Positions 304-40,144 of a DNA stretch of 42,207 nt are shown piece by piece. The stretch's first letter is position 1. The number at the start of each line of letters is the position of its first letter. Under the pieces are notes generated by a model. It did not search any database. It was not told the origin of the DNA and saw only the letters and a list, made by a program, of their open reading frames with translations. Location: the IMG/VR virus record IMGVR_UViG_3300034082_001433, positions 1 through 42,207 of that record; one strand, given 5' to 3'. Made by a program: the position numbers and the translations under genes. This DNA is from a virus.

Positions 304-1203
304 ATGTTCGACGTTGTTGTTTACCTAAGTTCCTTACATAAACAAACACCTGGTAGAAAGGTGGATACTCTTACAGCATTTGCTGACGGGGCAAGGCTGC
401 AAGGAGCTCGTGTACACATTGAAACTCGATACACTATCCAGTCTGCAAAATTAGCTGTCATCCTTGGCTGGCCAAGTCCAATCCAAACAACTGAAAATAT
501 TAAATTACGTGCTAAGATAGTCGAGCATCAGAGGCAGCAAAACAATCACATCATGGCCATAGACGCTAACTGTTTCAAATTCAAAGATCTTGACAGCAAA
601 TATCTAAGATACAGTATCAACGGTGTTGATTACGATTCCAGCGAATACGCTAATAAAAACTCTGACTCTTCTCGTTGGGATATTTTATCCAGTGATATTG
701 GACTAGAAATGAAAGACTGGAAACGACACGGAGAATATATTTTATTCTTAGTGCAACGTGACGGCGGATGGAGTATGAAAGGTCAAAGTCCTGTAGAATG
801 GACAAGACAAAAAATAGAAGCAGTAAGAAAAGTATCTAATCTTCCAATTGTGCTTAGACCGCATCCAGGAAAAATAGCAGATCTAAGACCACTGTTACGG
901 CCCGGAGTAACAATCAGCGACAGCACCAAGATTCCGATAGAACACGATCTAAGACGTGCCAAGGCAGCATTTGTGTTTAACAGCAGTAGCGGAGTTGCAT
1001 CAATCTTAGAAGGTGTTCCGTTATGGGTTGATGACAGCAGTAGTGTGTGTTGGGATGTTGCCAATTATAACATCGGAGATATTGATCATTCAAAGCAACC
1101 CGATAGAAGCCAGTGGATTAATGATCTTGCTGCGTGTCATTGGACTGATCAAGAAAGTCGACAAGGCCTTGTTTACAAACAGTTCTTGCCTTACTTAACG
1201 TAG
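304..1203 (+). CDS. GT-B-like glycosyltransferase / capsule-synthesis-like protein
   Basis: 299 residues. The C-terminal half carries RPHP (185-188), FNSSSG (225-230) and EGVPLWVDDSSS (236-247), the pattern of the nucleotide-binding half of GT-B or capsule-type transferases. A family tail follows: PDRSQW, then C-H-W-T-x-x-E-x-R-Q-G. ATG start preceded by AAGGA at about 5-6 bases. It follows the partial transferase at 2-295 and converges on the leftward reductase at 1195-1977, overlapping it by 9 bases. The C-terminal half is clearly homologous to the product at 9797-10621. The N-terminal half is not recognised. Sugar donor and acceptor unknown. Confidence 0.65.
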   Translation: MFDVVVYLSSLHKQTPGRKVDTLTAFADGARLQGARVHIETRYTIQSAKLAVILGWPSPIQTTENIKLRAKIVEHQRQQNNHIMAIDANCFKFKDLDSKYLRYSINGVDYDSSEYANKNSDSSRWDILSSDIGLEMKDWKRHGEYILFLVQRDGGWSMKGQSPVEWTRQKIEAVRKVSNLPIVLRPHPGKIADLRPLLRPGVTISDSTKIPIEHDLRRAKAAFVFNSSSGVASILEGVPLWVDDSSSVCWDVANYNIGDIDHSKQPDRSQWINDLAACHWTDQESRQGLVYKQFLPYLT

Positions 1204-1977
1204 TTTACCAATCGCAGTATCTAGTGCATCACTGATGTGCTGTATTGGAAATACTGAAAATAATTTATCAACATTCATAACACAATTAGATCTTGGAGCA
1301 ACTGTGGCGGCTTTAAATTCATCTCTGGTAAACCATTCTTTATCTAATTCAAGTTTATCAGCAACCTGTTTAGTAGTAGCAGATCCCGGGTTACAAACAT
1401 TGTAAATTCCACTGGCAGGTTTATTCACTGCAAAGTACACAGCTACCTTGGCCACATCAACTATGTAACTAAATGAGTTTTCATAGTCAATTAATTTTTG
1501 ATAGTTTGATAGTTTTGTAAAAATATTCTTGGGTTCATGTGTGTCGCCAAATGGCATGCGGATTCTTAGCAGATATGATTTGTTAAGATACGGAGTCATT
1601 AATTCTTGAAACAACGCCTTCGACCCACTGTAAAAAGATCCATTATTAAAATCAAAATTAGGAGCATCATCCTCAGTCCACCCGCCGGATTTGTAACCAG
1701 TGTATACACATCCGCTGGTGATATGCACGATAGGGGTAACGGGATTCGCAACTTCTAATTGCAATGGAAATACTACATTGCCATTGATGGTTTCTTGTTT
1801 ATATTGTTCACAGGCATCGACATTGGGTGAACCTGTGTAGCCAGCAGCATTGATGATTGCCGTTGTACCAGCGGGAACTATCTGGGAGTGTCCAATCCAT
1901 GTGTGATGAATATTTTGATCTTCTAATTCTTTTTTAATCTGCGTCCCAACATACCCGTGTCCGATTAATGTAATCAT
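1195..1977 (-). CDS. RmlD-like NAD(P)-dependent sugar reductase/epimerase (extended SDR)
   Basis: 260 residues. The N-terminal dinucleotide-binding motif GHGYVG (6-11) and the active-site pair Y116-x3-K120 (YSGSK) identify an extended short-chain dehydrogenase, closest in style to dTDP-4-dehydrorhamnose reductase. HITSGCVYTG (85-94) matches the strand before the catalytic Ser/Thr in this family. Expected role: reduce or epimerise an NDP-sugar in the cytoplasm for the transferases upstream in the operon. Its ATG overlaps the stop of the cytidylyltransferase gene (ATGA), so translation is coupled. It is the last gene of the leftward operon. Confidence 0.75.
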   Translation of the reverse strand: MITLIGHGYVGTQIKKELEDQNIHHTWIGHSQIVPAGTTAIINAAGYTGSPNVDACEQYKQETINGNVVFPLQLEVANPVTPIVHITSGCVYTGYKSGGWTEDDAPNFDFNNGSFYSGSKALFQELMTPYLNKSYLLRIRMPFGDTHEPKNIFTKLSNYQKLIDYENSFSYIVDVAKVAVYFAVNKPASGIYNVCNPGSATTKQVADKLELDKEWFTRDEFKAATVAPRSNCVMNVDKLFSVFPIQHISDALDTAIGKLR

Positions 1978-2462
1978 AGTGCGTCTCTTGATTTTATCAA
2001 TTCGGGAGAATACTGTGGCAATGCCTCGACATTATTGAGATCTTTGGCATTTTCTAACTTTGCTGTTCTAGCACGTAACTCGCTGGAAGAATACTTGTGA
2101 CCACGTTTATGGTAGTGCAATTCTATTCCCACGTCCATACAATACTGTTTACCTGTGAAATCTCTATTTAAATATTCTTCACTTAAAAATCTAATATGGA
2201 TTGTCTGTGTTTGTAACAACTGTAATAGATCAAATTCAGTTTCGTAGATTAAAATTTCATCAACATACTTGCAGGCCTGAAGCTGAACATATCGTTCATA
2301 TGCACTTTGCACCGGTTTATTTTTTGAACCAGGACGATCGACGGTTGGATCGATCTGTAGAGCAACTATGAGATAGTCGCATAATTCTTTCTCCATTTTT
2401 AACATTGTTACATGTCCAGCATGTAACAAATCAAAACTACTGCAATTAAATCCTATTTTCAT
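1974..2462 (-). CDS. TagD-like cytidylyltransferase
   Basis: About 162 residues. HAGH (14-17) is the HxGH nucleotide-binding motif of the nucleotidyltransferase alpha/beta-phosphodiesterase superfamily. SSSELR (125-130) matches the second signature, ISSTxxR. Close relatives (TagD, Tarl-type) make CDP-glycerol or CDP-ribitol from CTP. I prefer the ATG at 2462 over a TTG six bases upstream because AGGAG lies 9 bases before the ATG. The C-terminus runs about 30 residues past the usual TagD end. Together with the reductase it suggests a CDP- or NDP-activated building block. Exact substrate cannot be read. Confidence 0.75.
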   Translation of the reverse strand: MKIGFNCSSFDLLHAGHVTMLKMEKELCDYLIVALQIDPTVDRPGSKNKPVQSAYERYVQLQACKYVDEILIYETEFDLLQLLQTQTIHIRFLSEEYLNRDFTGKQYCMDVGIELHYHKRGHKYSSSELRARTAKLENAKDLNNVEALPQYSPELIKSRDAL

Positions 2463-2510
2463 CTGCAAGTTCTCCTAACTCTACACTTTGTAAGTAACAC
2501 TCACTGGGCA

Positions 2511-3185
2511 TTATAATTTTCCTATAAACTTTTTATTATTCGCCACCCACTGTTGAGCAGCTTCTGACTTATAATATTCACTGGTCCAGTCACTGTATAT
2601 TTGCCAGTTGTTCGGAACATCATAGTCTTTTCTTATAAGATACATTTGACAACTAACGCTAACGGCTCTAGCATCTGGTGCTAGAATATATTTAAACATT
2701 ACATTACCACTCTTATGTTTAGGACCATTCAGTCTAGTAACAATAGATTCTTCAGAGTCTAATCTAGATTTTTTTGCAATAACAACAAAGTCAGTTATTT
2801 TTTTCGTTGCACTAGCATCTAATCTTTCGTGTAGCTTATCATAATGATTCTTAAAATCCACTCCCATGAATGCTACATCATTGTTGTCATTTACAATTTC
2901 GTCTAGTTCGCTTAGAATTACCGGCATTGAATTATTTGTAAACCAAGTGTCAGTTCTAAGTTTAATAATAATATCTTCATTGACTTGTTTTACTGCCTGT
3001 AAGAAATCCCATACTTGGACCCCACCACTGGATTGAAATGGTCCTGTTGTGCTAGGGCCCGGTCTAGTAAAGTCGTAGACGTTCATTTCATATTTTGTTC
3101 TAAACAACTCAAATAATCTGTCATGATTAGTCCGAGAAGTTTTATCAAATTTTCGTTGACCGATGTATACTACGGCAATTGCCAT
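2511..3185 (-). CDS. WavE-like putative glycosyltransferase, copy 2
   Basis: 224 residues. It shares with its upstream neighbour (3170-4027) the blocks GGVQVWDF and IIKLRTDTWFT and a late C-Q-x-x-L-I-R-K. The RTD triad resembles the acidic metal-binding motif of WavE-type LPS transferases, so a GT-A-like fold is plausible, though this is by-eye recognition only. It overlaps the neighbour by 16 bases and is followed by about 50 non-coding bases before the cytidylyltransferase. It is shorter than its paralogue by about 60 residues, mainly at the C-terminus. Confidence 0.5.
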   Translation of the reverse strand: MAIAVVYIGQRKFDKTSRTNHDRLFELFRTKYEMNVYDFTRPGPSTTGPFQSSGGVQVWDFLQAVKQVNEDIIIKLRTDTWFTNNSMPVILSELDEIVNDNNDVAFMGVDFKNHYDKLHERLDASATKKITDFVVIAKKSRLDSEESIVTRLNGPKHKSGNVMFKYILAPDARAVSVSCQMYLIRKDYDVPNNWQIYSDWTSEYYKSEAAQQWVANNKKFIGKL

Positions 3186-4027
3186 CTTTTGAAATCCTCA
3201 ATATTTAAATCCTGCGCTTCCCATCCTTGTTGACTTCTCCACCAATTAACTGCATCTTGCATAGGGTGAGGAATTATAAAAGTTTTCTTTCCTATTTCGG
3301 ATTTATCATCTAAAATGTAACTTTGTATATAGTCCTTGCAAACTTCATTATCACCGGGATATGAAGTATATGTTTTTCTAATTAACCATGTTTGACATAA
3401 TATTCTAAAGGCATTGACGTCTTGAAAATTAAAATGTTCAGTTTTTGTCATAGGAATCAACAGTTTAAAAAGATTGTTACCGCTGCGACGTTTTTTTGGT
3501 GAAAGTGAAATAATGTAGTCTATGACTTCATTACCAGGCTTTAGTTGAGATCTGTTTGCTACAATTGCAAAATCCTGCACACCGCCAGGAACTCCGTCTA
3601 TGACAACCATTTTGTGATAGATCTTTCCAGCATTTTCATGGATCCAATCACTACCAAAAAAAGCCATATCTGTTTTGCCTACAAGGATTTTTTTCATCTC
3701 TTCACATATGATAGAAATACTAGAGTCAGTGAACCAAACGTCTGTGCGTAATCTCATCACATATGGTTCCGTGGTACGTTCACAACTTCTGTAAAAATCC
3801 CAGACCTGAATGCCGCCGCCTTGTCCTCGACGATATGCATTGTCAAGATTGGGGTCACCTTCTTCAAAAGGACAAACACCTCGATCAGGGTCGTCTTTGG
3901 TAAACCAATAGACGGTAATATCTATAATTTCTTTAAGACGATCAAACAGTCGTTGATGATTTTGTTTGACAATTTCTAAGTTATGTCTTTTATCACCGGT
4001 ATAAAATATTGCCAGTTTTTCTTTCAT
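3170..4027 (-). CDS. WavE-like putative glycosyltransferase, copy 1
   Basis: 285 residues. Key blocks are GGGIQVWDF, MRLRTDVWFT and C-Q-T-W-L-I-R-K, all mirrored in the adjacent gene 2511-3185, so the two are tandem duplicates. The RTD triad may be the nucleotide-sugar metal site, as in WavE-like LPS-core enzymes. The start overlaps the stop of the NTP-transferase/HAD gene (ATGA), showing coupled translation. The C-terminal extension rich in Trp and Gln (NWWRSQQGWEAQ) is absent from the copy. Acceptor and donor are unknown. Confidence 0.5.
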   Translation of the reverse strand: MKEKLAIFYTGDKRHNLEIVKQNHQRLFDRLKEIIDITVYWFTKDDPDRGVCPFEEGDPNLDNAYRRGQGGGIQVWDFYRSCERTTEPYVMRLRTDVWFTDSSISIICEEMKKILVGKTDMAFFGSDWIHENAGKIYHKMVVIDGVPGGVQDFAIVANRSQLKPGNEVIDYIISLSPKKRRSGNNLFKLLIPMTKTEHFNFQDVNAFRILCQTWLIRKTYTSYPGDNEVCKDYIQSYILDDKSEIGKKTFIIPHPMQDAVNWWRSQQGWEAQDLNIEDFKRWQLP

Positions 4028-5046
4028 ATAAAATCGCTTAAATTATCTTGATCTCTTTTTATATTTACAGCTACCGCACGTGGCCAGGGATTAGCATCGT
4101 TGTAATCGTTTATTAAAACACGTTTAGTGTTTGGCAATCCGGAAATTAACTTGAAGTCAACAAATCCTAGATCTTTTAGCATTTGCTCTGTTATTGCGTG
4201 TGAGTTACTGCTTCGTGCGGTGGTAAAGATTACTTGACTGCCATTGGCAATTAATTCTTTAACACATTTTATATTCTTTTCGAGTGGAATCGGCGTAGTT
4301 CCTACTTCTAGTCTCGACTGTGCTTTGATTATTGTACCGTCAACGTCGCAGAACAGCACAGCCTTATCATTATACTCAAACCATTCTTCTGCGGTGCCTA
4401 CATCTACATAATTTGTAACAGCACTTTCTTTGAATATTGCATTATCATTTAGACATTCTTCAATAATATGACTAACAAAGATTTCTTTTACGTTTGCATC
4501 TTTTAATTTTTCAAAAGCCGACATAAACATATCTGCTGATTCAAATTTGTATCCGCCCACACAGAACTTGTCAGATACAACCTGCTTTTCAATAATACTG
4601 GTAATGATGCCTTGGTCGTTAGACACTATAAAACTCTTGCTAGCTAATCGTTTTAGGATTTCGTGATCTCTAATGTTTGAAACGCAGACGTAATTGCCTT
4701 CTTGATAATCGTGGTCAAAAAAACTATCGCAGTCTTTGATTAAAAATTCTTCTGTGGTTAATTCTGCTTGTTTTAGTATCTGATAAACGGTATCAGCAGG
4801 TCCTGTTGTTCTATTTTCTAAAATTATAACCTGTATAGCATCACCGTATTCATTCTTGATATATTCAGCAGTATTATATTGATCGTTGTGTTCTTTTAGA
4901 ATACCGAGAGTGATATTGTGCTTGCCTATAAACGATTCAAGGGACCGTTCAAACATATATTTGCCTTGAAAGTCTGCAAGAATGTATTTTGGGCGCATAT
5001 TAGGAAATCTTGTAGATAACCCAGCAGCTGGCATTATTATTTCCAT
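4024..5046 (-). CDS. Sugar nucleotidyltransferase fused to HAD-family phosphatase
   Basis: 340 residues in two domains. Residues 1 to ~225 form an NTP-transferase domain: MPAAGLSTRF (5-14) is the nucleotide-binding loop with the G-x-x-x-R-x-P style, and DCD (105-107) is the metal-binding acidic pair. Residues ~230-340 form a HAD domain: nucleophile motif DVDGT (234-238), motif II in TTARSS (275-280) and an acidic ND (313-314). The fusion would activate a sugar phosphate (NTP to NDP-sugar) and remove a phosphate from the same or a related intermediate. The adjacent kinase could supply the phosphate ester. The order kinase, then nucleotidyltransferase, looks like a salvage-type activation route. 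Confidence 0.75.
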   Translation of the reverse strand: MEIIMPAAGLSTRFPNMRPKYILADFQGKYMFERSLESFIGKHNITLGILKEHNDQYNTAEYIKNEYGDAIQVIILENRTTGPADTVYQILKQAELTTEEFLIKDCDSFFDHDYQEGNYVCVSNIRDHEILKRLASKSFIVSNDQGIITSIIEKQVVSDKFCVGGYKFESADMFMSAFEKLKDANVKEIFVSHIIEECLNDNAIFKESAVTNYVDVGTAEEWFEYNDKAVLFCDVDGTIIKAQSRLEVGTTPIPLEKNIKCVKELIANGSQVIFTTARSSNSHAITEQMLKDLGFVDFKLISGLPNTKRVLINDYNDANPWPRAVAVNIKRDQDNLSDFI

Positions 5047-5780
5047 AACAAATTAATTCCTTTTAACAAAAAGTTTCTTTCAAGAGTATCCGGTTTACTA
5101 TGCCTATACACTCTTAACAACATTAGAATTAACAGATAGTCGTTGTTTGCTTCTGGATATCGTTCTAATATTCGTTGTTGTATGTGTTTGGTTTTTACAT
5201 CTAACATCGCATTATCTTTTCTGGTAAACCAGCCTAATTCTAAATCTTGTCTTAATTTTGCAATATCAAATACGTAGGAATCATATTCTATGGTTGCACA
5301 GTCGATAAGAAAAAATCCTCGATCAGTGGTAAAAATAATATTTTCTAGTGTTAAATCACCGTGATAATTTGAACTCGGTAATATTTTAGGAAGACGCTCT
5401 AGTAGTTGTTCACGAGTAAATGGCATCTCATCAAAACTAACTTCTTGTAATTTTTTAATATATGTTTCTGTATAATCTTTGTCTACAGCATTATTAGAAA
5501 GTTTATCTAAGATAGATAATATAAAATCTAATAATTTTTCGTAGTTGCTAGTTTTAAGATATGATTTGATATCTAGTCCGTGTAGATATTCCATATCGAT
5601 CATTTTATTTGATATTGTGTATAGTTGTGGAAGTGGATAATCTACTGACAGTACCTGCATACGTTCGATGTTTCTGGATATGTTACCAATCTTTCGTACA
5701 AAGAGTTTGTTGTGTTTCTGCATCAATAATATTTGATTTCCAGAAAACCCATGAAGCTCTTTAACTACCTTGGCGGCCAT
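5037..5780 (-). CDS. APH/choline-kinase-like phosphotransferase
   Basis: About 247 residues from the ATG at 5780. A TTG 15 bases further upstream is possible but overlaps the preceding gene more. HGDLTLEN (140-147) is the catalytic loop of aminoglycoside/choline kinase-like enzymes (Asp142 catalytic, Asn147 metal), and LID (158-160) holds the metal-binding Asp. It lacks a recognisable export signal, so it acts in the cytoplasm on a small alcohol or sugar. The start lies 1 base after the methyltransferase stop and the end overlaps the nucleotidyltransferase/HAD gene by 10 bases, so it probably feeds that enzyme. Drug resistance is unlikely in this context. Confidence 0.7.
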   Translation of the reverse strand: MAAKVVKELHGFSGNQILLMQKHNKLFVRKIGNISRNIERMQVLSVDYPLPQLYTISNKMIDMEYLHGLDIKSYLKTSNYEKLLDFILSILDKLSNNAVDKDYTETYIKKLQEVSFDEMPFTREQLLERLPKILPSSNYHGDLTLENIIFTTDRGFFLIDCATIEYDSYVFDIAKLRQDLELGWFTRKDNAMLDVKTKHIQQRILERYPEANNDYLLILMLLRVYRHSKPDTLERNFLLKGINLLWK

Positions 5781-5781
5781 A

Positions 5782-6339
5782 TCACTTGTATGCAACTACT
5801 CTGCTGTCAATACTGGATTTAGCATGAAGGTTGTTTTCGATCTGCACTCTTGTGAATCCAACATCGCGAAATAGTCTCGACATGCTTTCTGCGCTATATC
5901 CCCACTTGTGTAACATAGTCGGATCTGGATATCTAACACTATCTCCATATATGCCTGCTACAGTTCTTTTATGTAGACGCTTGTCATGCGACCAAAAACA
6001 GTCTGGATTATTAACAACTTCTTGACACATTTTTAATAAGTCGGGCCATTCGGTAGCTGCTGCACCACCCGGTCTAAGAATTCTATAAAACTCTTTATAC
6101 ATAACAGGAATGTGTTGACGACTAATATGCTCTACTACGTGAACACTTAATATTTCATCTACACAGTTGTCCGGTAAGGGAAAAGGTTTAGTAATATCGT
6201 GGATCATTACATTCGGATCGTGTGACATGTACTCGCCGTCAATGTTTAGATAGCCATCAAACAATCGGCTACCGCAACCAAGATGTAACCGTACTTTTTG
6301 TCCGCTGTTTGTTAATTCATTTACTTTTTCATTAAGCAT
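5782..6339 (-). CDS. Class I SAM-dependent methyltransferase (type 11)
   Basis: About 185 residues from ATG 6339 (a TTG four codons upstream is the only longer option; GGAA sits 8-9 bases before the ATG). LHLGCGS (18-24) is the SAM-binding glycine motif, followed by the acidic strand end LNIDGEY, then LSVHVVEHI and YRILRPGG, the classic motif I to III order of type 11 methyltransferases. It overlaps the next methyltransferase gene by 8 bases. It probably methylates a sugar or nucleotide sugar of the same pathway; the substrate is not readable. Confidence 0.75.
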   Translation of the reverse strand: MLNEKVNELTNSGQKVRLHLGCGSRLFDGYLNIDGEYMSHDPNVMIHDITKPFPLPDNCVDEILSVHVVEHISRQHIPVMYKEFYRILRPGGAAATEWPDLLKMCQEVVNNPDCFWSHDKRLHKRTVAGIYGDSVRYPDPTMLHKWGYSAESMSRLFRDVGFTRVQIENNLHAKSSIDSRVVAYK

Positions 6340-6910
6340 TTTTAGTTCCAAACATATTAATCATCGAATAAGGAAGATATTTTTTCATAGAGCCATCTTC
6401 ACGGGTTTCAATAAAAGCTCTTCTGCGATCAAAGTCGCTGTCTTTCTCTACAAACTCTACACTATCAGACAGTTCAGTTGAATACGCAAAGTTGTCCCAT
6501 TGAAATTCTGGAAATAGGAATTCAATGGCCTTAAAACTGTACCTGTAGTAATCATCTGGGTATTTATGGTATTTCCAAACCCAGGGACTGTTGATGTACA
6601 ACTTTCCACCGGGTTTAACTAAATCAGATAATACTTTGGCCATTAGCCAGGGCGTCGGGGTATGTTCAAGTACACTACAACAAATAATCAAATCAAAATA
6701 ATTTTTAGGTAACGGGTTATCTTCCTTGGTTAAATCGCAGACAACATCTACACCGGCACCTTCTTCGAGATCGACACCGACATATTCTACATCTGTGTAA
6801 TTTTCTCTAAATTCAGATACACTAACAATTTTACTGCCTATTTCAAGAACAGGGCCTTTGGCTTTAGGATATACTGTTTTTAAATAAACTATATCGTTGG
6901 GGCTACCCAT
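6332..6910 (-). CDS. Class I SAM-dependent methyltransferase (second copy in operon)
   Basis: 192 residues. PVLEIGSKI (20-28) is a SAM-binding motif I, YVGVDLEEG the acidic ribose-binding strand, and CCSVLEHTPTP and VKPGGKLYI complete the class I pattern. The Y-H-K-Y-P-D-D-Y-Y-R-Y-S stretch is typical of small-molecule or sugar methyltransferases of this group. The start ATG lies 1 base after the stop of the GT-B gene upstream. It is not an obvious duplicate of the neighbouring methyltransferase. Confidence 0.75.
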   Translation of the reverse strand: MGSPNDIVYLKTVYPKAKGPVLEIGSKIVSVSEFRENYTDVEYVGVDLEEGAGVDVVCDLTKEDNPLPKNYFDLIICCSVLEHTPTPWLMAKVLSDLVKPGGKLYINSPWVWKYHKYPDDYYRYSFKAIEFLFPEFQWDNFAYSTELSDSVEFVEKDSDFDRRRAFIETREDGSMKKYLPYSMINMFGTKNA

Positions 6911-6911
6911 A

Positions 6912-7874
6912 TTACATACCTAATTGACGTCTAACTTCTTCTATAAATCGGTTAGATAACACTCGTGCTGAATAGTTTTCTTCTGTGTATTTTTGACCAG
7001 CACGGATTCTTTCTAACGTCTTACCGTGATGTGCTAGAGCCCACTTAATACCAGCAATGTAATCATCCTGCCAAGTGTATGGTGCAAATTCTTCATAGCT
7101 GGCTAATGCTGTTGTAATAACAAATTTACCAGACATTAAACTATCGATTAATCTATTTGCGCTTTTAGTATCTGTTCTTGGATTATCTGTTTGCACAGGC
7201 ATTAATACGATATCACACTCGGATAACAATTGACCTTGTCGTTCCCAGGTCCATTCTTGCATGTCGAGTTTGTCAAAATTAATTCCGCTGATTTGACCTT
7301 TAGATTGTCTAAGACTCATTTTGCTGAGTAGTCTATCTGTTTTAGCACTGATCATGGTGTATTTGTAATTGCCAATTTCTTTTTCTAAACGCTGCCAAAT
7401 TTCTACAACAGGCAAAAATTTAAAACTTGATTGACTGCCAAACCATAGCAATTTAATTTCCTTGCCAGGAGAAAATGTTGGCTCAAGTTTAGGACGTTCA
7501 AATGGATCTGGCATAACAATACTGTCTCGACCAGTATGATGCTTGGTACTTACACCCATTTGCACACTGTTAACCGACACAAGGTCTGCTAATCGACAGC
7601 AAGGTTCGTATTCTTCTTTTTCTTCAAATTTATTATCACACAGGTCGTAAATTGTTTTTGCACCTAGATCTTTAGCCCGTTGAATGCTGGCAGGCTGACT
7701 GCGTTTTAAAAATATCACGATGGTAGTGTTGTCCACTTCTGACCAGTCAGTTAGAATTTTAGCATCGTAGCCTTGATCAGCCAACGCCTGACAGGTAACT
7801 TCTCCACGTAATCTATGACTGGCTCGTTTTGGTTTGTATGCGTCACTAAAGAATCTAATTTTTACGTTGTGCAT
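6912..7874 (-). CDS. GT-B (group 1-like) glycosyltransferase
   Basis: About 320 residues. I chose ATG 7874; the open frame extends to a TTG at 7886, which deepens the overlap with the FkbM gene and has no ribosome site. The sequence has a two-domain GT-B look: an N-terminal Rossmann-like half, then KLLWFGSQSSFK (the start of the nucleotide-sugar domain), and near the C-terminus the E/D-x7 region SANRLIDSLMSGKFVITTALASYEEF, the usual group 1 donor-binding segment. Cytoplasmic. Donor and acceptor unknown. Confidence 0.7.
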   Translation of the reverse strand: MHNVKIRFFSDAYKPKRASHRLRGEVTCQALADQGYDAKILTDWSEVDNTTIVIFLKRSQPASIQRAKDLGAKTIYDLCDNKFEEKEEYEPCCRLADLVSVNSVQMGVSTKHHTGRDSIVMPDPFERPKLEPTFSPGKEIKLLWFGSQSSFKFLPVVEIWQRLEKEIGNYKYTMISAKTDRLLSKMSLRQSKGQISGINFDKLDMQEWTWERQGQLLSECDIVLMPVQTDNPRTDTKSANRLIDSLMSGKFVITTALASYEEFAPYTWQDDYIAGIKWALAHHGKTLERIRAGQKYTEENYSARVLSNRFIEEVRRQLGM

Positions 7875-8512
7875 TTTAAAATCCAATCTTTTTTATGTTG
7901 ATCTACTACTCGAAAACCCCAAGACTCTAATATTTTGATAGATGGTTTATCGGTCATTGCGTCTTTGTATTCGTGCTTTTGTTGTTCAACAACAATTACT
8001 GGTTTATTTCTAAGAATAGTCTGCATTGCACCAGCAAGGATTTCTTCTTCAAATCCCTCTACGTCAATTTTTATTAAATCAATATTTTCATAGTTGTAAC
8101 TATCCAGTGTCCTTAACGGAATAGAACCCTTGCCTACCGATGTGGGATCGATATGACTATGCCCGGTATTCCCCTGAACGATATTCATTTCTATCAGTGA
8201 TTCAGTGCGCCCAAGTGCTACTGGTTCAATTATATAATTACTGCCTAGCACGTTTTTCTTAAAACATTCTCTAAATTCAGGAACTGGTTCGAAAGCAATA
8301 ACTTTTTCAAATTGTTTTACAAGATCGCAAGCCCATAGACCTACGTTTGCACCGATATCAATACAGATTCTTTTGTTATCACAAAATGCAATTGCAGAAT
8401 CTCTAGCCCTCCATTGATATCGAACTACTCCGTCATTCTTGAGACTTTTTGCAAGCATCCTAGGAAAATGATCATCATAATCCGGAAACCAAAATCCATG
8501 ACTTTCTATCAT
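7862..8512 (-). CDS. FkbM-family methyltransferase
   Basis: 216 residues. The FkbM order is clear: DIGANVG (52-58) binds SAM, FEPVPE (74-79) follows the acidic strand, and KIDVEGFE (148-155) is the diagnostic C-terminal block. FkbM-type enzymes O-methylate polyketide or sugar hydroxyls and are common in surface-polysaccharide clusters, including viral ones. The ATG overlaps the stop of the GT-A gene upstream (ATGA). It is the third methyltransferase in one operon, so the glycan made here is probably heavily methylated. Confidence 0.85.
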   Translation of the reverse strand: MIESHGFWFPDYDDHFPRMLAKSLKNDGVVRYQWRARDSAIAFCDNKRICIDIGANVGLWACDLVKQFEKVIAFEPVPEFRECFKKNVLGSNYIIEPVALGRTESLIEMNIVQGNTGHSHIDPTSVGKGSIPLRTLDSYNYENIDLIKIDVEGFEEEILAGAMQTILRNKPVIVVEQQKHEYKDAMTDKPSIKILESWGFRVVDQHKKDWILKCTT

Positions 8513-9351
8513 TTAAATGTACTCCAATATTTTTCTAATCTGTTGACTTTGAGATCTGTTTGTAAACTATGACCGTGATCCTTGCGATCGCCTTTGAGAT
8601 GATCAAGATATCCGCCCCATTCGCAATTAATCAAAGGATGGCCCTCACCTACTGAATTTGTTTTCGATGGTCTTAGGTCGCCAAGCTGTTGACTCCAATT
8701 TAATTGTTTTAGTTCTGGTACTGTTTTTCTTACAGCATCAAACACAAAACTGTCATGCCACTCACCTAAGGTGAAGATACCATTTTCTGCGTCATCGTAA
8801 TATCTTTGAAAAGTTTCTAGGAATTTTTTTGTTGCAGGACTTCTAAGATTCATAGCGTACAGGCCGCATTCACTGTATTTTCCTTCTCTGCCAAGGTAAC
8901 ATAAATCAAAAGACGGTGAACATAGTGCTAAAACTTTTTCACGGGTAATTGCACTGTGACAAACCATATCAGCATCCATCCATAACAGGATATCAGCATC
9001 AGTTGTTCTAGCACAGTGAAAAATTGCATAAACTTTATGAGCGAATCTCACAGCATGCCACTTGAACGCTTTCTTTGAATCCTTTCGACCGCCTCTAACA
9101 GGATCACCGCTGACATCACCGTTGGCCTTGGGCACATCCTTCCAACGGTTTTTAAATTCTGTTAATTCTTGAACATCGTCGAGGCTGAATAGGGTCACAT
9201 GATTATGATTTCTAACAATGGGATTACATTTTTCTGGGTATATGTGCAGAGTAATTTCCTCTGGCCAGTTTTCACAGAATCCGTCGATCATCCTCTGTGC
9301 ATATTTTTTTAAACCTTGTTCATGAAAGGTTGTTACCACTGCTATCTTCAT
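8509..9351 (-). CDS. GT-A-like glycosyltransferase with DxD motif
   Basis: 280 residues. ILLWMDADMV (121-130) contains the DAD metal/nucleotide-sugar motif typical of GT-A enzymes. The later segment with GEWHDSFVFD and a C-terminal D-H-G-H-S-L region could hold the remaining catalytic residues. No membrane span is seen, so it is cytoplasmic. Start and stop overlap both neighbours by four bases (ATGA), tying it into the operon. Substrate unknown. Confidence 0.65.
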   Translation of the reverse strand: MKIAVVTTFHEQGLKKYAQRMIDGFCENWPEEITLHIYPEKCNPIVRNHNHVTLFSLDDVQELTEFKNRWKDVPKANGDVSGDPVRGGRKDSKKAFKWHAVRFAHKVYAIFHCARTTDADILLWMDADMVCHSAITREKVLALCSPSFDLCYLGREGKYSECGLYAMNLRSPATKKFLETFQRYYDDAENGIFTLGEWHDSFVFDAVRKTVPELKQLNWSQQLGDLRPSKTNSVGEGHPLINCEWGGYLDHLKGDRKDHGHSLQTDLKVNRLEKYWSTFK

Positions 9352-9746
9352 CTATAATGCTCCCATACGTGAAAAATGCCTTGCAGGCTGGTGCAGGCCC
9401 AACCGGAATCGTACAAAGGTTTGGCTATAGCGTTATCTATACGAACGCCGCCCTCGACGAAAATTTTTGAATTGTGTTTTTTCCATAATGCTTCTACTTT
9501 ATCAAGATTACACAACTCATTGTGATCGATAAAAATTGATGCAATATTTTGTATATGATCTAATTTAACAAAAGTTTCTTTATAAACAAGATTTTTAGCC
9601 TTAAACGCCGGCTGTGCTGTGCTGACCACAAATACTGTGTCATATATTTCTACAACTTGCTCTAAAATTCCAAAAGCCGATCCTAGCACCAGGGCATGAT
9701 CGCGGTCTCTTGAAAGTTTATGCAGTCTTTTTTTGAATTTGTTCAT
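9348..9746 (-). CDS. Hypothetical protein, first gene of the leftward glycan operon
   Basis: 132 residues, family not recognised. The N-terminus is basic (KFKKRLHKLSRDRDH) and followed by ALVLGSAFGILEQV, which has the strand-loop-helix look of a Rossmann-type nucleotide site but lacks a full SAM glycine motif. An alternating beta/alpha pattern follows. It starts 37 bases left of the divergent gene at 9797-10621 and has late-type promoter octamers just upstream. Its ATGA overlap with the GT-A gene indicates operon membership, so a helper role in glycan modification is likely but unproved. Confidence 0.55.
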   Translation of the reverse strand: MNKFKKRLHKLSRDRDHALVLGSAFGILEQVVEIYDTVFVVSTAQPAFKAKNLVYKETFVKLDHIQNIASIFIDHNELCNLDKVEALWKKHNSKIFVEGGVRIDNAIAKPLYDSGWACTSLQGIFHVWEHYR

Positions 9747-19486: not shown

Positions 19487-19595
19487 AAAAATACTAGATT
19501 TTATTTTATATCCTTGGCACAAATACCAAGAACACAAGACATGGAAAAAACGTTTAGAAGAATTACGTAAACGTGATCCATTTATCTACAAATGA
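19479..19595 (+). CDS. Tiny basic protein between primase and carbamoyltransferase
   Basis: 38 codons. The ATG overlaps the primase stop by eight bases and the TGA overlaps the next ATG by four, so it is translationally coupled on both sides. A hydrophobic N-terminus (ILDFILYPWHKY) is followed by a Lys/Arg-rich helix with KRLEELRKRDP. An amphipathic peripheral membrane role is possible. Coding is supported by the overlap structure; function unknown. Confidence 0.6.
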   Translation: MIKKILDFILYPWHKYQEHKTWKKRLEELRKRDPFIYK

Positions 19596-20533
19596 TCGCC
19601 TGGGGGGTTAACGCCCTTAATCACGGAAGTAGTCTGGCTGTATTCAAGGACGGTAATTTGTGGTCCAATCAAGCGGGCTCGTCGGATGAGTTAGACAGCA
19701 AAATAATCACCGATGCTCTGCATGTTGGAGTACCTGATCGTATCTTTTGGTACGAGCGACCCTGGGTCAAGAAAGCAAGACAGGCATATGCAGGACAGTG
19801 GCATCGCGTATTAGACATGAGAGTACTTCCACGCAGATACATGAAAGCACAACATTACGCACCAATTACTTATACACCGCATCATGGTAGTCATGCAGCC
19901 GCAGGCTACTATACCAGTCCGTTTAATCACGCTGCTGTTGTGGTACTCGACGCCATAGGTGAGTTTGAATGTGCTACTATATGGGAAGGAAAACACGGTG
20001 AGATGAAGAAAGTGTGGAGTCGCAGCTATCCAAACAGTCTAGGGTTGTTCTATAGTGCATTTACTCACGCTCTAGGAATGACTCCATTACAAGACGAATG
20101 GAAATTACAGGCAATGGCAGAAAACGGCAATCCTAAAATTTTTTATTACAGAGTACAGAAATATTTTACAGGACTACTAGAATTGAATTATAACTTTCAC
20201 AAAGGTGTCAAGGATCAAAAATTTTATATAGATAGCATAGAAGACGAAGCAAATCTTGCAGCCGCGGTTCAATTGGTATTTGAAGAACAAATTGAAATGA
20301 TTATGAATAAAGCAAAAGAACTGACAAATGCAGATTGCCTAGTATACATGGGTGGATGTGCGATGAACAGCAAGGCAAACAAGACAGTAGTTGAACCCAA
20401 GTTCAAATATATTTGGTCATTGCCTAATCCTGGGGATCCTAGTAGTTCAGTAGGGGCAGTCTTGTATCACACTAAACAAAGAGAGTGGAAATACGACTTC
20501 GGTGTTGCAAAACACATAGCAATTAGTGTATAA
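19592..20533 (+). CDS. Carbamoyltransferase, Kae1-like N-terminal domain only
   Basis: 313 residues. WGVNALNHGSSLAVFKDG and HHGSHAAAGYY (H97, H98, H101) are the metal- and nucleotide-binding signatures of the NodU/CmcH/TobZ O-carbamoyltransferase family. VVVLDAIGEFE and GLFYSAFTHALGMTPLQDEWKLQAMA follow as in the family. Full-length enzymes have a C-terminal YrdC-like domain and are about 550-600 residues; this lacks it. It may carbamoylate a sugar or nucleotide, or need a separate YrdC partner. Similar short versions lie near primase in other T4-like phages, as I recall. Confidence 0.8.
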   Translation: MIAWGVNALNHGSSLAVFKDGNLWSNQAGSSDELDSKIITDALHVGVPDRIFWYERPWVKKARQAYAGQWHRVLDMRVLPRRYMKAQHYAPITYTPHHGSHAAAGYYTSPFNHAAVVVLDAIGEFECATIWEGKHGEMKKVWSRSYPNSLGLFYSAFTHALGMTPLQDEWKLQAMAENGNPKIFYYRVQKYFTGLLELNYNFHKGVKDQKFYIDSIEDEANLAAAVQLVFEEQIEMIMNKAKELTNADCLVYMGGCAMNSKANKTVVEPKFKYIWSLPNPGDPSSSVGAVLYHTKQREWKYDFGVAKHIAISV

Positions 20534-22189: not shown

Positions 22190-22531
22190 ATGCGAGCAAA
22201 AGAGTTTATAACTGAGAGAGAAATGCCCGAACGCAAGAGTCGGACAATGAGCACGGCTTTTGAGTTTCCTACCATGCCCAGTTCAGATGCATATCAGGCA
22301 TATAGATTCGGTATTGCCATGGCCAATCACAAAGAACCACCTTACGGTCCTACTGAACAACATGCTGTGATCAGTGCTTATACCCCCGAAGACGAAGAGA
22401 TCATACATGCAGCCGAACGAGCCACTGGCCATAAGGGACGATTAGTAGCTGATCGTGGCAGTCACGAGCCTGACTCTACAGAAACAACAAGTCCTGTGGC
22501 CAAACCTAAACGCAATCGCTACGGAGTTTGA
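22190..22531 (+). CDS. Putative capsid-targeted internal protein (N-terminal MRAKEFITE)
   Basis: 113 residues. The first 9 residues, MRAKEFITE, parallel the T4 capsid-targeting sequence of internal proteins (MKTYQEFIAE). They end in I-x-E, the cut site type of the prohead protease gp21. If so, the mature protein would begin at Arg10 and be packaged in the head. The rest contains HKEPPYGPTEQHAVISAYTPEDEEIIHAAERATGHKG, no domain recognised. It starts 3 bases after the previous stop and ends 1 base before the GTG-started nucleotidyltransferase. Confidence 0.6.
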   Translation: MRAKEFITEREMPERKSRTMSTAFEFPTMPSSDAYQAYRFGIAMANHKEPPYGPTEQHAVISAYTPEDEEIIHAAERATGHKGRLVADRGSHEPDSTETTSPVAKPKRNRYGV

Positions 22532-22532
22532 C

Positions 22533-23243
22533 GTGAGATTAAGAGAATTTTCAAACAACGATTTTGTCACGGTAAATGCAGATCTAAATCCCAAACTGTG
22601 GCAAGAGGGTAGACTGGACGGTGCAGTACGTCAAAAGTTGATAGAGATCGCCCGGGCCTTTGTGGATTTCGTGGGCATTGATCTAGACATCAAAGACTAT
22701 ACAATAACAGGATCTAACGCCAACTACACCTGGAGCAAGTACAGCGACCTTGATCTGCACGTGATCATCGAAGGCGAAGTCTCTGATGAACAACGTGAGC
22801 TTTTTACCGCTAAAAAGGCACTCTGGGCTGAATACCACGATATCACTGTCAAAGGCTTGCCTGTGGAGTGTTATGTACAAGGCGAAACAGAAACACATCA
22901 CAGCACAGGAGTCTACAGCATTATAAACAGTTCGTGGATTATCAAGCCTCAGAAGACAGAACCCGAGCTAGATGACCAGGCAGTGGAAGCTAAAAAAGAC
23001 AGTATGCTGTCATTGATAGAGCAAGCTCTGTTAAGCAAAGATCTAGAAAAATTACGAGCAGTCAAAGACAAGATCACAGTCATGCGCAGAGCTGGCCTGG
23101 ATCGTGCTGGAGAGTGGAGTGTTGAGAACGTGGTGTTTAAGATATTACGTAATCTAGGTCTGATAGATCAAATCACCGAAAAAATAAGAGAGCTGGAAGA
23201 TGCCGAGCTCTCTTTGGAACAACAGACCAACGTGTTAGACTAG
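22533..23243 (+). CDS. Predicted nucleotidyltransferase (Pol-beta-like NTase fold)
   Basis: About 236 residues from GTG 22533, chosen because GGAG sits 6 bases upstream. The longer frame to 22455 overlaps the previous gene and has no ribosome site. GSNANYTWSKYSDLDLH (60-76) is the G-S-x9-S-D-x-D motif of the Pol-beta NTase superfamily, with D72 and D74 as metal ligands; ECYV (about 110-114) may hold the third acid. The C-terminal half is helical. Such phage proteins may transfer nucleotides to RNA, protein or small molecules. It converges on BI-1 with a 4-base overlap. Confidence 0.7.
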   Translation: MRLREFSNNDFVTVNADLNPKLWQEGRLDGAVRQKLIEIARAFVDFVGIDLDIKDYTITGSNANYTWSKYSDLDLHVIIEGEVSDEQRELFTAKKALWAEYHDITVKGLPVECYVQGETETHHSTGVYSIINSSWIIKPQKTEPELDDQAVEAKKDSMLSLIEQALLSKDLEKLRAVKDKITVMRRAGLDRAGEWSVENVVFKILRNLGLIDQITEKIRELEDAELSLEQQTNVLD

Positions 23244-23935
23244 TCTTTTCTACCGCCGAACAGTTGCAGTAGGTTTATAAACAGATTAATAAAGTCCATG
23301 TACAGGCTTAATGCACCTGATACTTCTACCGCAGGGCTGGTATCAACTGAAACCATTTCACGGATCCGTTGTGTGTCGTAGGCAGTTAATCCCAAAAAGA
23401 TAATGATAGCCAATGCACTAACAACCATCTGCATCACAGTGCTGCCAATAAAAATGTTCACAATGCTGGCAATGATGATAGCAATCAAACCTACAAACAT
23501 AAACCTACCCACGCTGTCTAGACTGCGCTTGGTAAAGTAACCGTATCCACTCATCACAGCAAACAGGATGGCAGCACCCATGAATGCACTCACAATACTG
23601 CCCATGGTGAACACAGCAAAGATCATTGAAAAACTGAGACCCATTAGAGCTGCGAATCCATGTAAACAAAGCTGTGCAACTTCTTTGCTGGGGTTGTTGC
23701 CCAACACATAACTAACACCAAATATGGCTGCTAGGGGCGCAAAGATCACGATCCACTTGAGCACACCTGTAAAAAAGAATTGCAGCAACTCGGGTGTGGT
23801 GCCTACAAAATAACTAACCAACATTGATACTACGACTGCTAGACTCATGTGACCGTAGACACGACCCATGGCACTATTGACTTCTTCTGCTGAGCGGTAA
23901 TCTGTGACTCCGCCAGTGTAATTTGTTCCGAACAT
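23240..23935 (-). CDS. Bax inhibitor-1 (YccA/YetJ-like) seven-span membrane protein
   Basis: 231 residues with about seven hydrophobic spans from residue 30 to the end. TAYDTQ (184-189) and LYMDFINLF (211-219) are the conserved BI-1 motifs; D187 and D214 form the aspartate pair that gates Ca2+/H+ flux in YetJ. E. coli relative YccA binds and modulates the FtsH protease. AAGGAG is 6 bases before the ATG. It is the second gene in a two-gene operon, 13 bases after the cytochrome c gene. The role in infection is unknown: membrane homeostasis or FtsH control are candidates. Confidence 0.9.
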   Translation of the reverse strand: MFGTNYTGGVTDYRSAEEVNSAMGRVYGHMSLAVVVSMLVSYFVGTTPELLQFFFTGVLKWIVIFAPLAAIFGVSYVLGNNPSKEVAQLCLHGFAALMGLSFSMIFAVFTMGSIVSAFMGAAILFAVMSGYGYFTKRSLDSVGRFMFVGLIAIIIASIVNIFIGSTVMQMVVSALAIIIFLGLTAYDTQRIREMVSVDTSPAVEVSGALSLYMDFINLFINLLQLFGGRKD

Positions 23936-23948
23936 TTGAACTCCTTGG

Positions 23949-24245
23949 TTATTTGATATTGAGAATATACGTTGCTAATTTCTTGGCATCTACGTCAGAG
24001 ATTTGCGGGTGAGCAGGCATGGGCATGGCACCCCAGACTCCAGCACCACCAGCACGTATTTTTTTGGCCAGTTTATCAGTGGCATCTGCCTGGCCACGAT
24101 ACTTGTTGGCCACGGCTTTGAAAGCTGGACCTACCACAGTTTGGTTGACATTATGGCAGGCCAAACAGTTGTTTTTCATCAAGAGATCATTGTCTGCCCA
24201 CGCTGGCGAAGACATCAAAATCAAACTCATAATCACAGTTTTCAT
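23949..24245 (-). CDS. Exported class I cytochrome c (c551/c552-like)
   Basis: 98 residues. A signal peptide MKTVIMSLILMSSPAWA is predicted to be cut before Asp18-Asn19, leaving about 81 residues, the size of c551. The haem site is C27-L-A-C30-H31. The distal segment GVWGAMPMPAHP matches the GVWG-x-x-PMPP loop of Pseudomonas c551 and supplies axial Met76. DVDAKKLATYILNIK is the C-terminal helix. Maturation would need the host Ccm system in the periplasm. AAGGAG lies 5-6 bases before the ATG. First gene of an operon with BI-1. Confidence 0.93.
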   Translation of the reverse strand: MKTVIMSLILMSSPAWADNDLLMKNNCLACHNVNQTVVGPAFKAVANKYRGQADATDKLAKKIRAGGAGVWGAMPMPAHPQISDVDAKKLATYILNIK

Positions 24246-24274
24246 AATTACTCCTTGTGGTTGCTATAACCTTA

Positions 24275-24303
24275 ATTATATACTATAATATTTACATAGT
24301 CAA
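24275..24303 (-). promoter_or_regulatory. Sigma70 promoter for cytochrome c/BI-1 operon
   Basis: On the minus strand TTGACT (24303-24298), 17 bases, TATAAT (24280-24275). Five of six -35 bases and all -10 bases match the consensus. A roughly 23-base leader with AAGGAG follows. It is independent of the rightward genes on either side. Confidence 0.85.
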
Positions 24304-24370: not shown

Positions 24371-24808
24371 ATGCTACACATAATCAACGACCTTAAAGAC
24401 AACCTACTCACACTGATCAAAGACGATCCTGTGAGACCTGAACTCACGCCCGAATTCCGTGTGAACTCAAACTCAAAGATATTTGTGTTGAGAGATGATG
24501 TCACTGATGCACCCCTGGCAGTGACCTGTGTGAAGTTTCTAAACCAAATTCCTCACAATGTGGATGAACTAGCAGAACTAACTGTGAATACCAATACTGC
24601 GGTGTTCTATACTATTTGGAGTTATGCATCAGGTGCAGGACGTAGATTGATTGAAGAAGCACAACAACAGATTCGGCAAGAACATCCCGAAGTTGATACC
24701 TATGTGACTCTGAGCCCAAAGACTGAAATGGCTCGCAAGTTTCACCTTAAAAACGGTGCGGAAATGTTCAGAGAAAATCCCGACTCAGTGAACTATCTCT
24801 ACAGATAA
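24371..24808 (+). CDS. GNAT-like protein resembling malonyl-CoA decarboxylase C-terminus
   Basis: 145 residues. TAVFYTIWSYASGAGRRLIEEAQQQI then DTYVTLSPKTEMARKF resembles the GNAT-fold tail of malonyl-CoA decarboxylase (AIFYSISN...G-x-x-LIKQVV...FATLSPIPGF). The helical domain of that enzyme is absent and the catalytic His/Ser cannot be placed. G-A-G-R-R-L may be the CoA-pyrophosphate loop. A small acyltransferase-like role is the best guess; alternative is a structural remnant. Confidence 0.55.
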   Translation: MLHIINDLKDNLLTLIKDDPVRPELTPEFRVNSNSKIFVLRDDVTDAPLAVTCVKFLNQIPHNVDELAELTVNTNTAVFYTIWSYASGAGRRLIEEAQQQIRQEHPEVDTYVTLSPKTEMARKFHLKNGAEMFRENPDSVNYLYR

Positions 24809-38740: not shown

Positions 38741-38978
38741 TATCAATCTCCTCGATTTCTTGTAGCCGTTTCAAATCAGCTAGTTCTCTATCAATCAACT
38801 TCTCCATCTTCTTGGCACCCGTGTTGCTGGATCCCTTCTTGTACATCTGATGGTAGTGCTCTGCACAGTAGCTCTTGCCTGCTATGCTCTTCTGCCCGCA
38901 CATCTTGAAAGGCCACTTGATCTGCTCTGACCCGATGTACTGGCACTCTTTGGCTGAGCCCAATCCTGTATCTATCAT
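38733..38978 (-). CDS. Small zinc-motif protein, GcrA-like
   Basis: 81 residues. CQYIG, then CGQKSIAGKSYCAEHYHQMY gives the C...C-G...Y-C-x-x-H zinc-site pattern seen at the C-terminus of GcrA cell-cycle regulators. GcrA links to sigma70 RNA polymerase in alphaproteobacteria. The rest is a charged helix. ATGA overlap with the AAA ATPase gene. Confidence 0.6.
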   Translation of the reverse strand: MIDTGLGSAKECQYIGSEQIKWPFKMCGQKSIAGKSYCAEHYHQMYKKGSSNTGAKKMEKLIDRELADLKRLQEIEEIDNV

Positions 38979-40078
38979 GCCATACCCTTCATAACAGTTA
39001 CACGAGCCATATTCTGCCAGTTAGCAGGGAAGCTCTTCTTCAAGTCTGCACACTTCAAAACAGTACGCAGGCTCAGCTCTCGCATATGGCTACGGTTCTC
39101 AAGGATGAAATTAACGATCTCATCTTTAGCCGTTTCCTCAAGCTCGTATGAATCCAACATACCATCTTTGACGATCTGCTTGATACGCAGAACCTTCTCA
39201 CGGTCTGTGTCCATACGCAGGTCAATGAAGTGACAGCGTGACTCTAGTGCCGCCAAGTGCTCTTGAAGCTTCTTGCTACGCACATTCTCAAACTTCAAGT
39301 TGGTGATAAAGATAGCACCACCCTTGAAATCAAACTTGTCAGGCACTCCTTCTGAGCGTAGCACACGGCTGTCAGTGTTCCACGAAATAGTACGCTTCTT
39401 TGAAGTGTCCAAAGCGGCCTTGAGAATGTTGAGTGCAACGTCGTCCAAAAGGATTGAGTCACAGTCATCGAACACAACAATGTTCTTGGGATCGCTGAAC
39501 TTGTACAGTTTGGAGTAGAGTCCAATTGCTGACATAGCACCTTTGACAATCTCATACTTGGGCTTGCGCTGGCCCATCATATCAAACAGGTCATCTTTGG
39601 CAAGTACTTCTTCAACACCAAAGCTCTTGCCTACACCTGGAGGGCCTGTGACAATCATAGCACGAACGTCACCAGTTTTCACTGCTTTGGTCATATCCTT
39701 GAGGATCTCAAAGCGCAGTCGTGTACGCTCGATGATCTGCTCATCAGTTTCGTCTGCGACAGCAGAGTCTGGCACTTTGACCTGTGTGAAGTCTGTAACA
39801 GTAGCATCGTTCTTGCCAGCCTTGGTGGGCTTGGCAAGGGCCTGCAACATTGTAACCCCTGCTGGAGCTCCTGCAATTGCTTGAACATCACTTTGGTTGC
39901 ATCGTACCTTACAGGTCTCGCCGCCACCCTTGATGTTGTAGCCTGAACGGGCCTTGATGTAGCCTTCCCAACCATTGCTGGCTTCGGTGACAAAGTCCCC
40001 TACCATATCCAGTTCAATGCCTGGGTAGATCTGATTGCTTTTGGCACCGTACTGACCTTGTGCTAGTGTAATACGCAT
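38975..40078 (-). CDS. AAA ATPase with N-terminal beta domain
   Basis: 367 residues from ATG 40078, AGGAG about 9 bases upstream. A small beta domain (1-60) with GWEGYIKARSGYNI is followed by a linker, then Walker A GPPGVGKS (145-152), Walker B VVFDDCDS (201-208), sensor ITNLKF and R-finger region ALESRCHFIDLR. Phage ATPase of this kind, function unknown. Operon with GcrA-like and membrane proteins. Confidence 0.75.
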   Translation of the reverse strand: MRITLAQGQYGAKSNQIYPGIELDMVGDFVTEASNGWEGYIKARSGYNIKGGGETCKVRCNQSDVQAIAGAPAGVTMLQALAKPTKAGKNDATVTDFTQVKVPDSAVADETDEQIIERTRLRFEILKDMTKAVKTGDVRAMIVTGPPGVGKSFGVEEVLAKDDLFDMMGQRKPKYEIVKGAMSAIGLYSKLYKFSDPKNIVVFDDCDSILLDDVALNILKAALDTSKKRTISWNTDSRVLRSEGVPDKFDFKGGAIFITNLKFENVRSKKLQEHLAALESRCHFIDLRMDTDREKVLRIKQIVKDGMLDSYELEETAKDEIVNFILENRSHMRELSLRTVLKCADLKKSFPANWQNMARVTVMKGMA

Positions 40079-40115
40079 AGTTTTCGCTCCTGTGTGTGTT
40101 GTTAACATAGTGTCT

Positions 40116-40144
40116 ATTATATGCTCAATTAGGGAGTTTGTCAA
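40116..40144 (-). promoter_or_regulatory. Early promoter TTGACA-17-TATAAT
   Basis: Perfect boxes; drives 40078-38540. Confidence 0.9.

Follow-up and report, generated by a model that had tools for sequence, protein, structure and literature searches.

The window analysed here is an IMG/VR virus record of 42,207 bases, within which the minus strand carries a cytochrome c gene and, separated from it by 13 bp, a gene for a Bax-inhibitor-1 (BI-1) family membrane protein. The features of the locus are collected in Table 1. The arrangement described in an earlier note on this DNA, with two open reading frames on the strand opposite to their flanks and AAGGAG before each start, is present in full. 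The promoter motif TTGACT-17-TATAAT (24303-24275) matches the consensus at 11 of 12 positions, and each of the ten relatives examined (10/10) has this promoter with a spacer of 17 nt as well. From this layout the cytochrome and BI-1 genes are presumably transcribed jointly.

Table 1. Features of the cytochrome c and BI-1 locus, in positions of the window
Feature	Position	Strand	Basis or remark
Nucleotidyltransferase-domain gene	22455-23243	+	One flank of the gene pair
BI-1 family membrane protein, YbhL/YetJ type, 231 aa	23240..23935	-	Pfam PF01027; predicted fold matches YetJ
Asp214 codon, second Asp	23294..23296	-	Asn in 61 of 217 phage homologues
Asp187 codon, first Asp of the di-aspartyl pair	23375..23377	-	Invariant in 304 homologues
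AAGGAG ribosome-binding site of BI-1	23941..23946	-	Sequence
Exported monohaem cytochrome c, c551/c552 type	23949..24245	-	98 aa; Pfam PF00034 and 1a56 match
Axial-Met codon (mature Met59, in GAMPMP)	24018..24020	-	Alignment to c552; invariant among the homologues aligned
Haem attachment motif CLACH	24153..24167	-	Sequence
AAGGAG ribosome-binding site of the cytochrome	24251..24256	-	Ancestrally that of BI-1, from sequence and relatives
Putative promoter TTGACT-17-TATAAT	24275..24303	-	BI-1's own; kept in relatives without the cytochrome
145-aa gene	24371-24808	+	Other flank of the gene pair

The phage is a large, freshwater-type tailed phage. With the PA5oct-type jumbo phages of Pseudomonas it shares 50% identity in the replicative helicase (DnaB) and 48% in a conserved gene at 38975-40144. 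The helicase, the PHROG matches present in the window, and the large terminase on the 85-86 kb contigs of close relatives all agree with the earlier description of the pair as a phage operon. The order of GNAT-like gene, cytochrome, BI-1, and nucleotidyltransferase also occurs in contigs of three further metagenomes (3300003277, 3300027756, and 3300015244), the cytochromes of which are 98-99% identical. An assembly chimera, or bacterial contaminant DNA within a phage contig, would be in keeping with the bacterial type of the genes and with a shift in GC content across the window, but these three independent contigs have the same order between the same phage flanks and none of the bacterial loci examined (0/131) holds both genes, making this explanation hardly credible; the chimeric assembly raised as a concern in the earlier note is excluded by the three contigs. 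That note had also set against its own reading a lack of relatives in any phage together with a near-identical bacterial locus, and what was found is the reverse, with relatives in phages and no pair among the 131 bacterial loci. The GC content climbs from about 40% to 50% across positions 1-42207, with the shift at about 22-28 kb, and since the relatives span part of this stretch the shift does not look like a join. Elsewhere in the window, a run of genes at 304-9746 resembles, by eye, nucleotide-sugar, glycosyl-, and methyltransferase functions, which suggests a possible phage-encoded glycan or virion decoration. A carbamoyltransferase-like gene at 19592-20533 is 82% identical in L070 and about 40% identical in L009, L028, and L053, and this appears to be a rapidly exchanged position, most of the neighbouring genes there being more than 80% identical.

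The cytochrome matches Pfam Cytochrom_C (PF00034) at 4.7e-10, over the curated cut-off. The features of the precursor sequence are a 17-residue Sec-type signal ending in AWA and a mature part of 81 amino acids that carries CLACH (CxxCH) at residues 10-14 and the methionine of PMP at residue 59, so that the export signal, CxxCH, and axial Met previously listed as c551-like features are all present. The best relative among solved structures is PDB 1a56 (5.7e-24), which is likewise 81 residues long and which we take to be Nitrosomonas europaea cytochrome c-552. By sequence, the protein is assigned as a class I cytochrome c and would be an electron carrier of the c551/c552 type. With the bacterial c551/c552 proteins (N. 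europaea c552 and P. aeruginosa c551) it shares the signal peptide, the mature domain of about 81 aa, the CxxCH motif, the axial Met in GxxPMP, and the Pfam Cytochrom_C domain. It differs from them in being phage-encoded and located in a phage operon, and in having its nearest kin among other phage genes (L217-L221, 66-70% identity), whereas the closest bacterial cytochrome found is at most about 59% identical.

The BI-1 protein (231 aa) matches Pfam Bax1-I (PF01027) at 2.8e-53, with 181 bits against a curated cut-off of 34.1, and the earlier description of a seven-span protein with both aspartates holds, seven hydrophobic spans as well as Asp187 and Asp214 being present. A structure model based on a 51-sequence alignment, used in place of a narrower alignment that gave an unusable model of pLDDT 43, reached a pLDDT of 83.6 and its sole confident matches were YetJ structures, with a probability of 1.00. 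Among the E. coli paralogues, the protein is 37.4% identical to YbhL (2e-43) and 23.4% identical to YccA (5e-11), and YccA lacks both Asp residues whereas YbhL retains both. A YccA-type identity is ruled out by these differences, and the comparison with YccA drawn in the earlier note is better replaced by one with YbhL. Sequence and predicted fold together place the protein in the YbhL/YetJ branch of the BI-1/TMBIM family. Like B. subtilis YetJ and E. coli YbhL, it has kept Asp187, Asp214, and the seven spans, and its predicted fold is that of YetJ; unlike these proteins, phage BI-1 falls in clades made up of phage sequences alone, outside the bacterial sequences compared. All of the 217 phage and 87 bacterial BI-1 proteins have Asp187, and at position 214 the phage proteins have Asp in 156 cases and Asn in 61. 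Nearly all members of the second phage clade (the L225 clade, L336-L390) have Asn at this second conserved Asp, and if these proteins are YetJ-like their pH gating should be changed. Since Asn at position 214 is found in 61 of 217 proteins, including the L225 clade, the di-Asp gate would not be universal.

A different function for BI-1 would be to act mainly as a brake on the FtsH protease, shielding phage or host membrane proteins, including respiratory ones, with the cytochrome as an accessory; precedents are E. coli YccA and mitochondrial TMBIM5, two inhibitors that bind FtsH-type proteases (PMC9379554). In some phages BI-1 adjoins ClpP, which is in line with such a role, but phage BI-1 is YbhL-like and not YccA-like (37% versus 23%). 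We know of no FtsH link for YbhL, and we consider this function quite improbable.

The history of the locus can be read from relatives in which BI-1 and the window's upstream neighbour are both kept but the cytochrome is missing (L003, L010, L025/L072, L028/L029, and L053/L057/L058); the more rearranged relatives L064 and L070 likewise have no cytochrome. In L003, L010, L028, L053, and L072 the promoter, ribosome-binding site, and BI-1 lie between the same flanking genes, with the cytochrome absent. The distance from TTGAC(T/A/C)-17-TATAAT to BI-1 is 26-32 nt without the cytochrome and 340 nt with it (ten relatives), and AAGGAG occurs twice in cytochrome-bearing relatives. Because of this difference in spacing and the doubled AAGGAG, comparison of the relatives shows an insertion of the cytochrome between the promoter and ribosome-binding site of BI-1 and BI-1 itself. 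Repeated loss of the cytochrome is less likely than insertion because its dS, 0.22-0.24, is the lowest of the locus, the neighbours having values of 0.32-1.14. The low dS may reflect recent arrival or spread of the gene, and strong codon constraint or gene exchange between phages could also explain it. The cytochrome has a dN/dS of 0.037-0.046 and BI-1 one of 0.025-0.049; such values (about 0.04) indicate strong purifying selection on both genes, which rules out pseudogene or passenger status for either. A ready-made bacterial pair was also rejected as the source, since the two genes were together in 0/131 bacterial loci and have different nearest bacterial groups. The cytochrome was probably captured, in the history of the phage, from Burkholderiales-like bacteria.

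By our own count, c551-type genes are present on about 45 viral contigs belonging to roughly 14 lineages, and a tblastn search of isolate phages with the cytochrome gave no match. The bacterial cytochrome family is concentrated in one order, that of G410 (264 of 300 genomes), which appears to correspond to Burkholderiales in the GTDB sense, and the presumed host group is read from the cytochrome alone. The tree of the cytochrome with bacterial homologues that the earlier note had called for places the phage sequences in several groups, with 8 changes (7-9 in bootstraps) in a tree that is made from few columns and whose starred branches force just 2 changes. On this tree, repeated capture of c551-type genes by phages is likely, though unproven branch by branch. 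Among these phage genes, L221 (6001-6237) and L218 (6001-6297) share their upstream sequence; the L221 cytochrome is cut at residue 79 and followed by different genes, a break that may be a truncation, a recombination, or an assembly join. In L233, L238, L239, and L241 a peroxiredoxin gene is located no more than 2.5 kb from the cytochrome, in L063, L054, L060, and L066 no more than 2.5 kb from BI-1, and another peroxiredoxin-like ORF is near the cytochrome in L437. These neighbours possibly form part of a broader set of redox genes in large freshwater phages.

Relatives of BI-1 were found in at least 597 stretches of viral contigs, and the best 80 of these at least 597 stretches have identities of 85-94% and lie mostly in quite different phage neighbourhoods. 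Two more scans of viral contigs gave a BI-1 group of 70-91% identity and a second clade with an identity of about 44% to the protein of the window. In a neighbour survey of 219 loci, forming 111 clusters at 95%, the neighbours of BI-1 that could be identified most often, with names read from their sequences, are MazG, ThyX, ribonucleotide reductase, DNA ligase, IscU, IscA, and ClpP. The BI-1 tree, proposed together with that of the cytochrome, separates the phage proteins from the sampled bacterial ones, with both phage clades starred and a support of just 59 for one split. The nearest bacterial BI-1 proteins found are those of Alphaproteobacteria (49-51%), those in genomes of the cytochrome's bacterial order being 30-38% identical. 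In isolate phages, tblastn with BI-1 returned 8 weak, unannotated records of at most 41% identity. BI-1 is an old and widespread gene of environmental large phages and is essentially absent from isolate genomes; its history in phages is much longer than that of the cytochrome, and its spread much wider. A second-clade BI-1 (L349 and L388, at 4001-4672) adjoins the same nucleotidyltransferase-like gene as the BI-1 of the window, which suggests that one type of BI-1 took the place of another at a single locus. The contig 3300032288_004815 (117,666 bases; L326 and L327) contains the BI-1 locus twice, near both ends and in opposite orientations, through either an inverted duplication or an assembly palindrome.

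The gene pair, which according to the earlier note was to be searched for in other phages, is seen in three lineages, namely the window group with its three other contigs, L225, and, in a looser form, L226. L225, a phage contig of 119 kb, carries genes for a family-B DNA polymerase, a clamp loader, and tail fibres, and its cytochrome and BI-1 are 51-53% and 44% identical to those of the window. Here the cytochrome and one small ORF are located between a histone-like gene and BI-1, with overlapping starts and stops, whereas the relatives L340 and L347 have no cytochrome and BI-1 follows the histone-like gene after 12 bp. By this comparison, the insertion of the cytochrome directly upstream of BI-1 in L225 is assigned as independent. 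The small ORF (L225:6276-6455) carries a CGCG motif and overlaps both the cytochrome and BI-1, and a similar CGCG ORF is present at L220:10776-10964. The order in L226 is BI-1, aldolase, gap, cytochrome, and glyA, and this pairing is weak because no BI-1 is present on the contigs of its relatives L436-L439 and the cytochrome of L437 keeps its place before glyA. No BI-1 was seen on many cytochrome-bearing contigs, some of them over 200 kb, and the cytochrome was found in one of 19 BI-1-bearing virus contigs tested, that one belonging to the window group. Most phages with BI-1 have no cytochrome nearby, and most of the contigs with the cytochrome have no BI-1, so the pair is not obligatory.

The mostly separate occurrence of the cytochrome and BI-1, the tie of the cytochrome to glyA and not to BI-1 in the L226/L437 group, and the position of BI-1 amid mixed phage genes (MazG, ThyX, RNR, IscU, and ClpP) would all be expected of two unrelated auxiliary genes that each act alone and share a promoter through a permissive insertion site upstream of a well expressed membrane-protein gene. 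However, same-strand insertion directly upstream of BI-1 has taken place independently in two lineages with BI-1 proteins that are 44% identical. By a rough binomial, three pairings among 14 lineages (within about 1.2 kb) have a probability of 0.0003-0.0025 if the chance is 1-2% each, but of 0.16 at a chance of 10% each, as for gene islands, and clustering of auxiliary genes could explain the three pairings. We regard the unrelated action of the two genes as doubtful. With two independent insertions, co-expression looks favoured, while joint action is unproven.

The explanation that we prefer, and that as a whole we hold to be slightly better than an even bet, is that the cytochrome and BI-1 genes of this large tailed phage are truly transcribed as one unit and constitute a host-energy operon, in which c551 would support respiratory electron flow and BI-1 would be a pH-gated ion leak. 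The phage lineage has long carried BI-1 under its own sigma-70-like promoter, and a captured c551/c552-type cytochrome was inserted ahead of it later. The cytochrome would be exported through Sec, loaded with haem by the host Ccm machinery, and would shuttle electrons in the periplasm between the host bc1 complex and either a nitrite reductase or a terminal oxidase, thereby replenishing the carrier during host gene shutdown. BI-1 in the inner membrane may act through the Asp187-Asp214 pair as a pH-gated Ca2+/H+ leak or exchanger that limits over-energisation or ion overload, and both proteins together would preserve a usable proton-motive force and inner membrane over the course of a long infection.

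Within the BI-1 family, YetJ is a pH-dependent calcium channel (PMC8446389), and TMBIM5, a Ca2+/H+ exchanger, keeps hyperpolarisation in check and is an inhibitor of an FtsH-type protease (PMC9379554). Mitochondrial TMBIM5 (MICS1/GHITM) is, like phage BI-1, a BI-1-family inner-membrane protein, and it was reported to bind cytochrome c (Oka 2008, cited in PMC7598220), a report that was later doubted. For the phage pair such binding would be hypothetical, and the link between TMBIM5 and cytochrome c is itself questioned (PMC9379554 and PMC7598220). By analogy, the TMBIM5 report motivates a reading in which phage BI-1 would exchange Ca2+/H+ and at the same time hold or position the phage cytochrome on the periplasmic side of the inner membrane, so that respiratory electron flow would be coupled to membrane protection. 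Selection for such a cooperating module would have brought a cytochrome directly upstream of BI-1 more than once, and we consider the module improbable.

The host-energy explanation likens the pair to the electron-transport auxiliary metabolic genes of phages, as host-type energy genes under selection in a phage. Cyanophage photosystem genes are phage auxiliary genes for electron transport, and viral tetrapyrrole genes are also auxiliary metabolic genes (PMC11480375); in contrast to both, a heterotroph's respiratory carrier is here joined to BI-1. By their host-type metabolic role, phage context, and selection, the two genes qualify as putative auxiliary metabolic genes. A search of the open-access literature, with subscription journals and preprints outside its scope, found no paper on phage BI-1 or on a BI-1-cytochrome pair, in agreement with the earlier suggestion that the pairing is undescribed. 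Auxiliary metabolic genes are already known as a kind, and what is new is this combination and its repeated assembly. The finding indicates that phages of heterotrophic bacteria, and not cyanophages alone, carry parts of electron transport chains, and BI-1 is an apparently undescribed and very common membrane gene of environmental large phages. This suggests that some phages keep the membrane energy system of the host running during infection. If the two proteins cooperate, they would provide a small bacterial system for the disputed link between the BI-1 family, cytochrome c, and membrane energisation.
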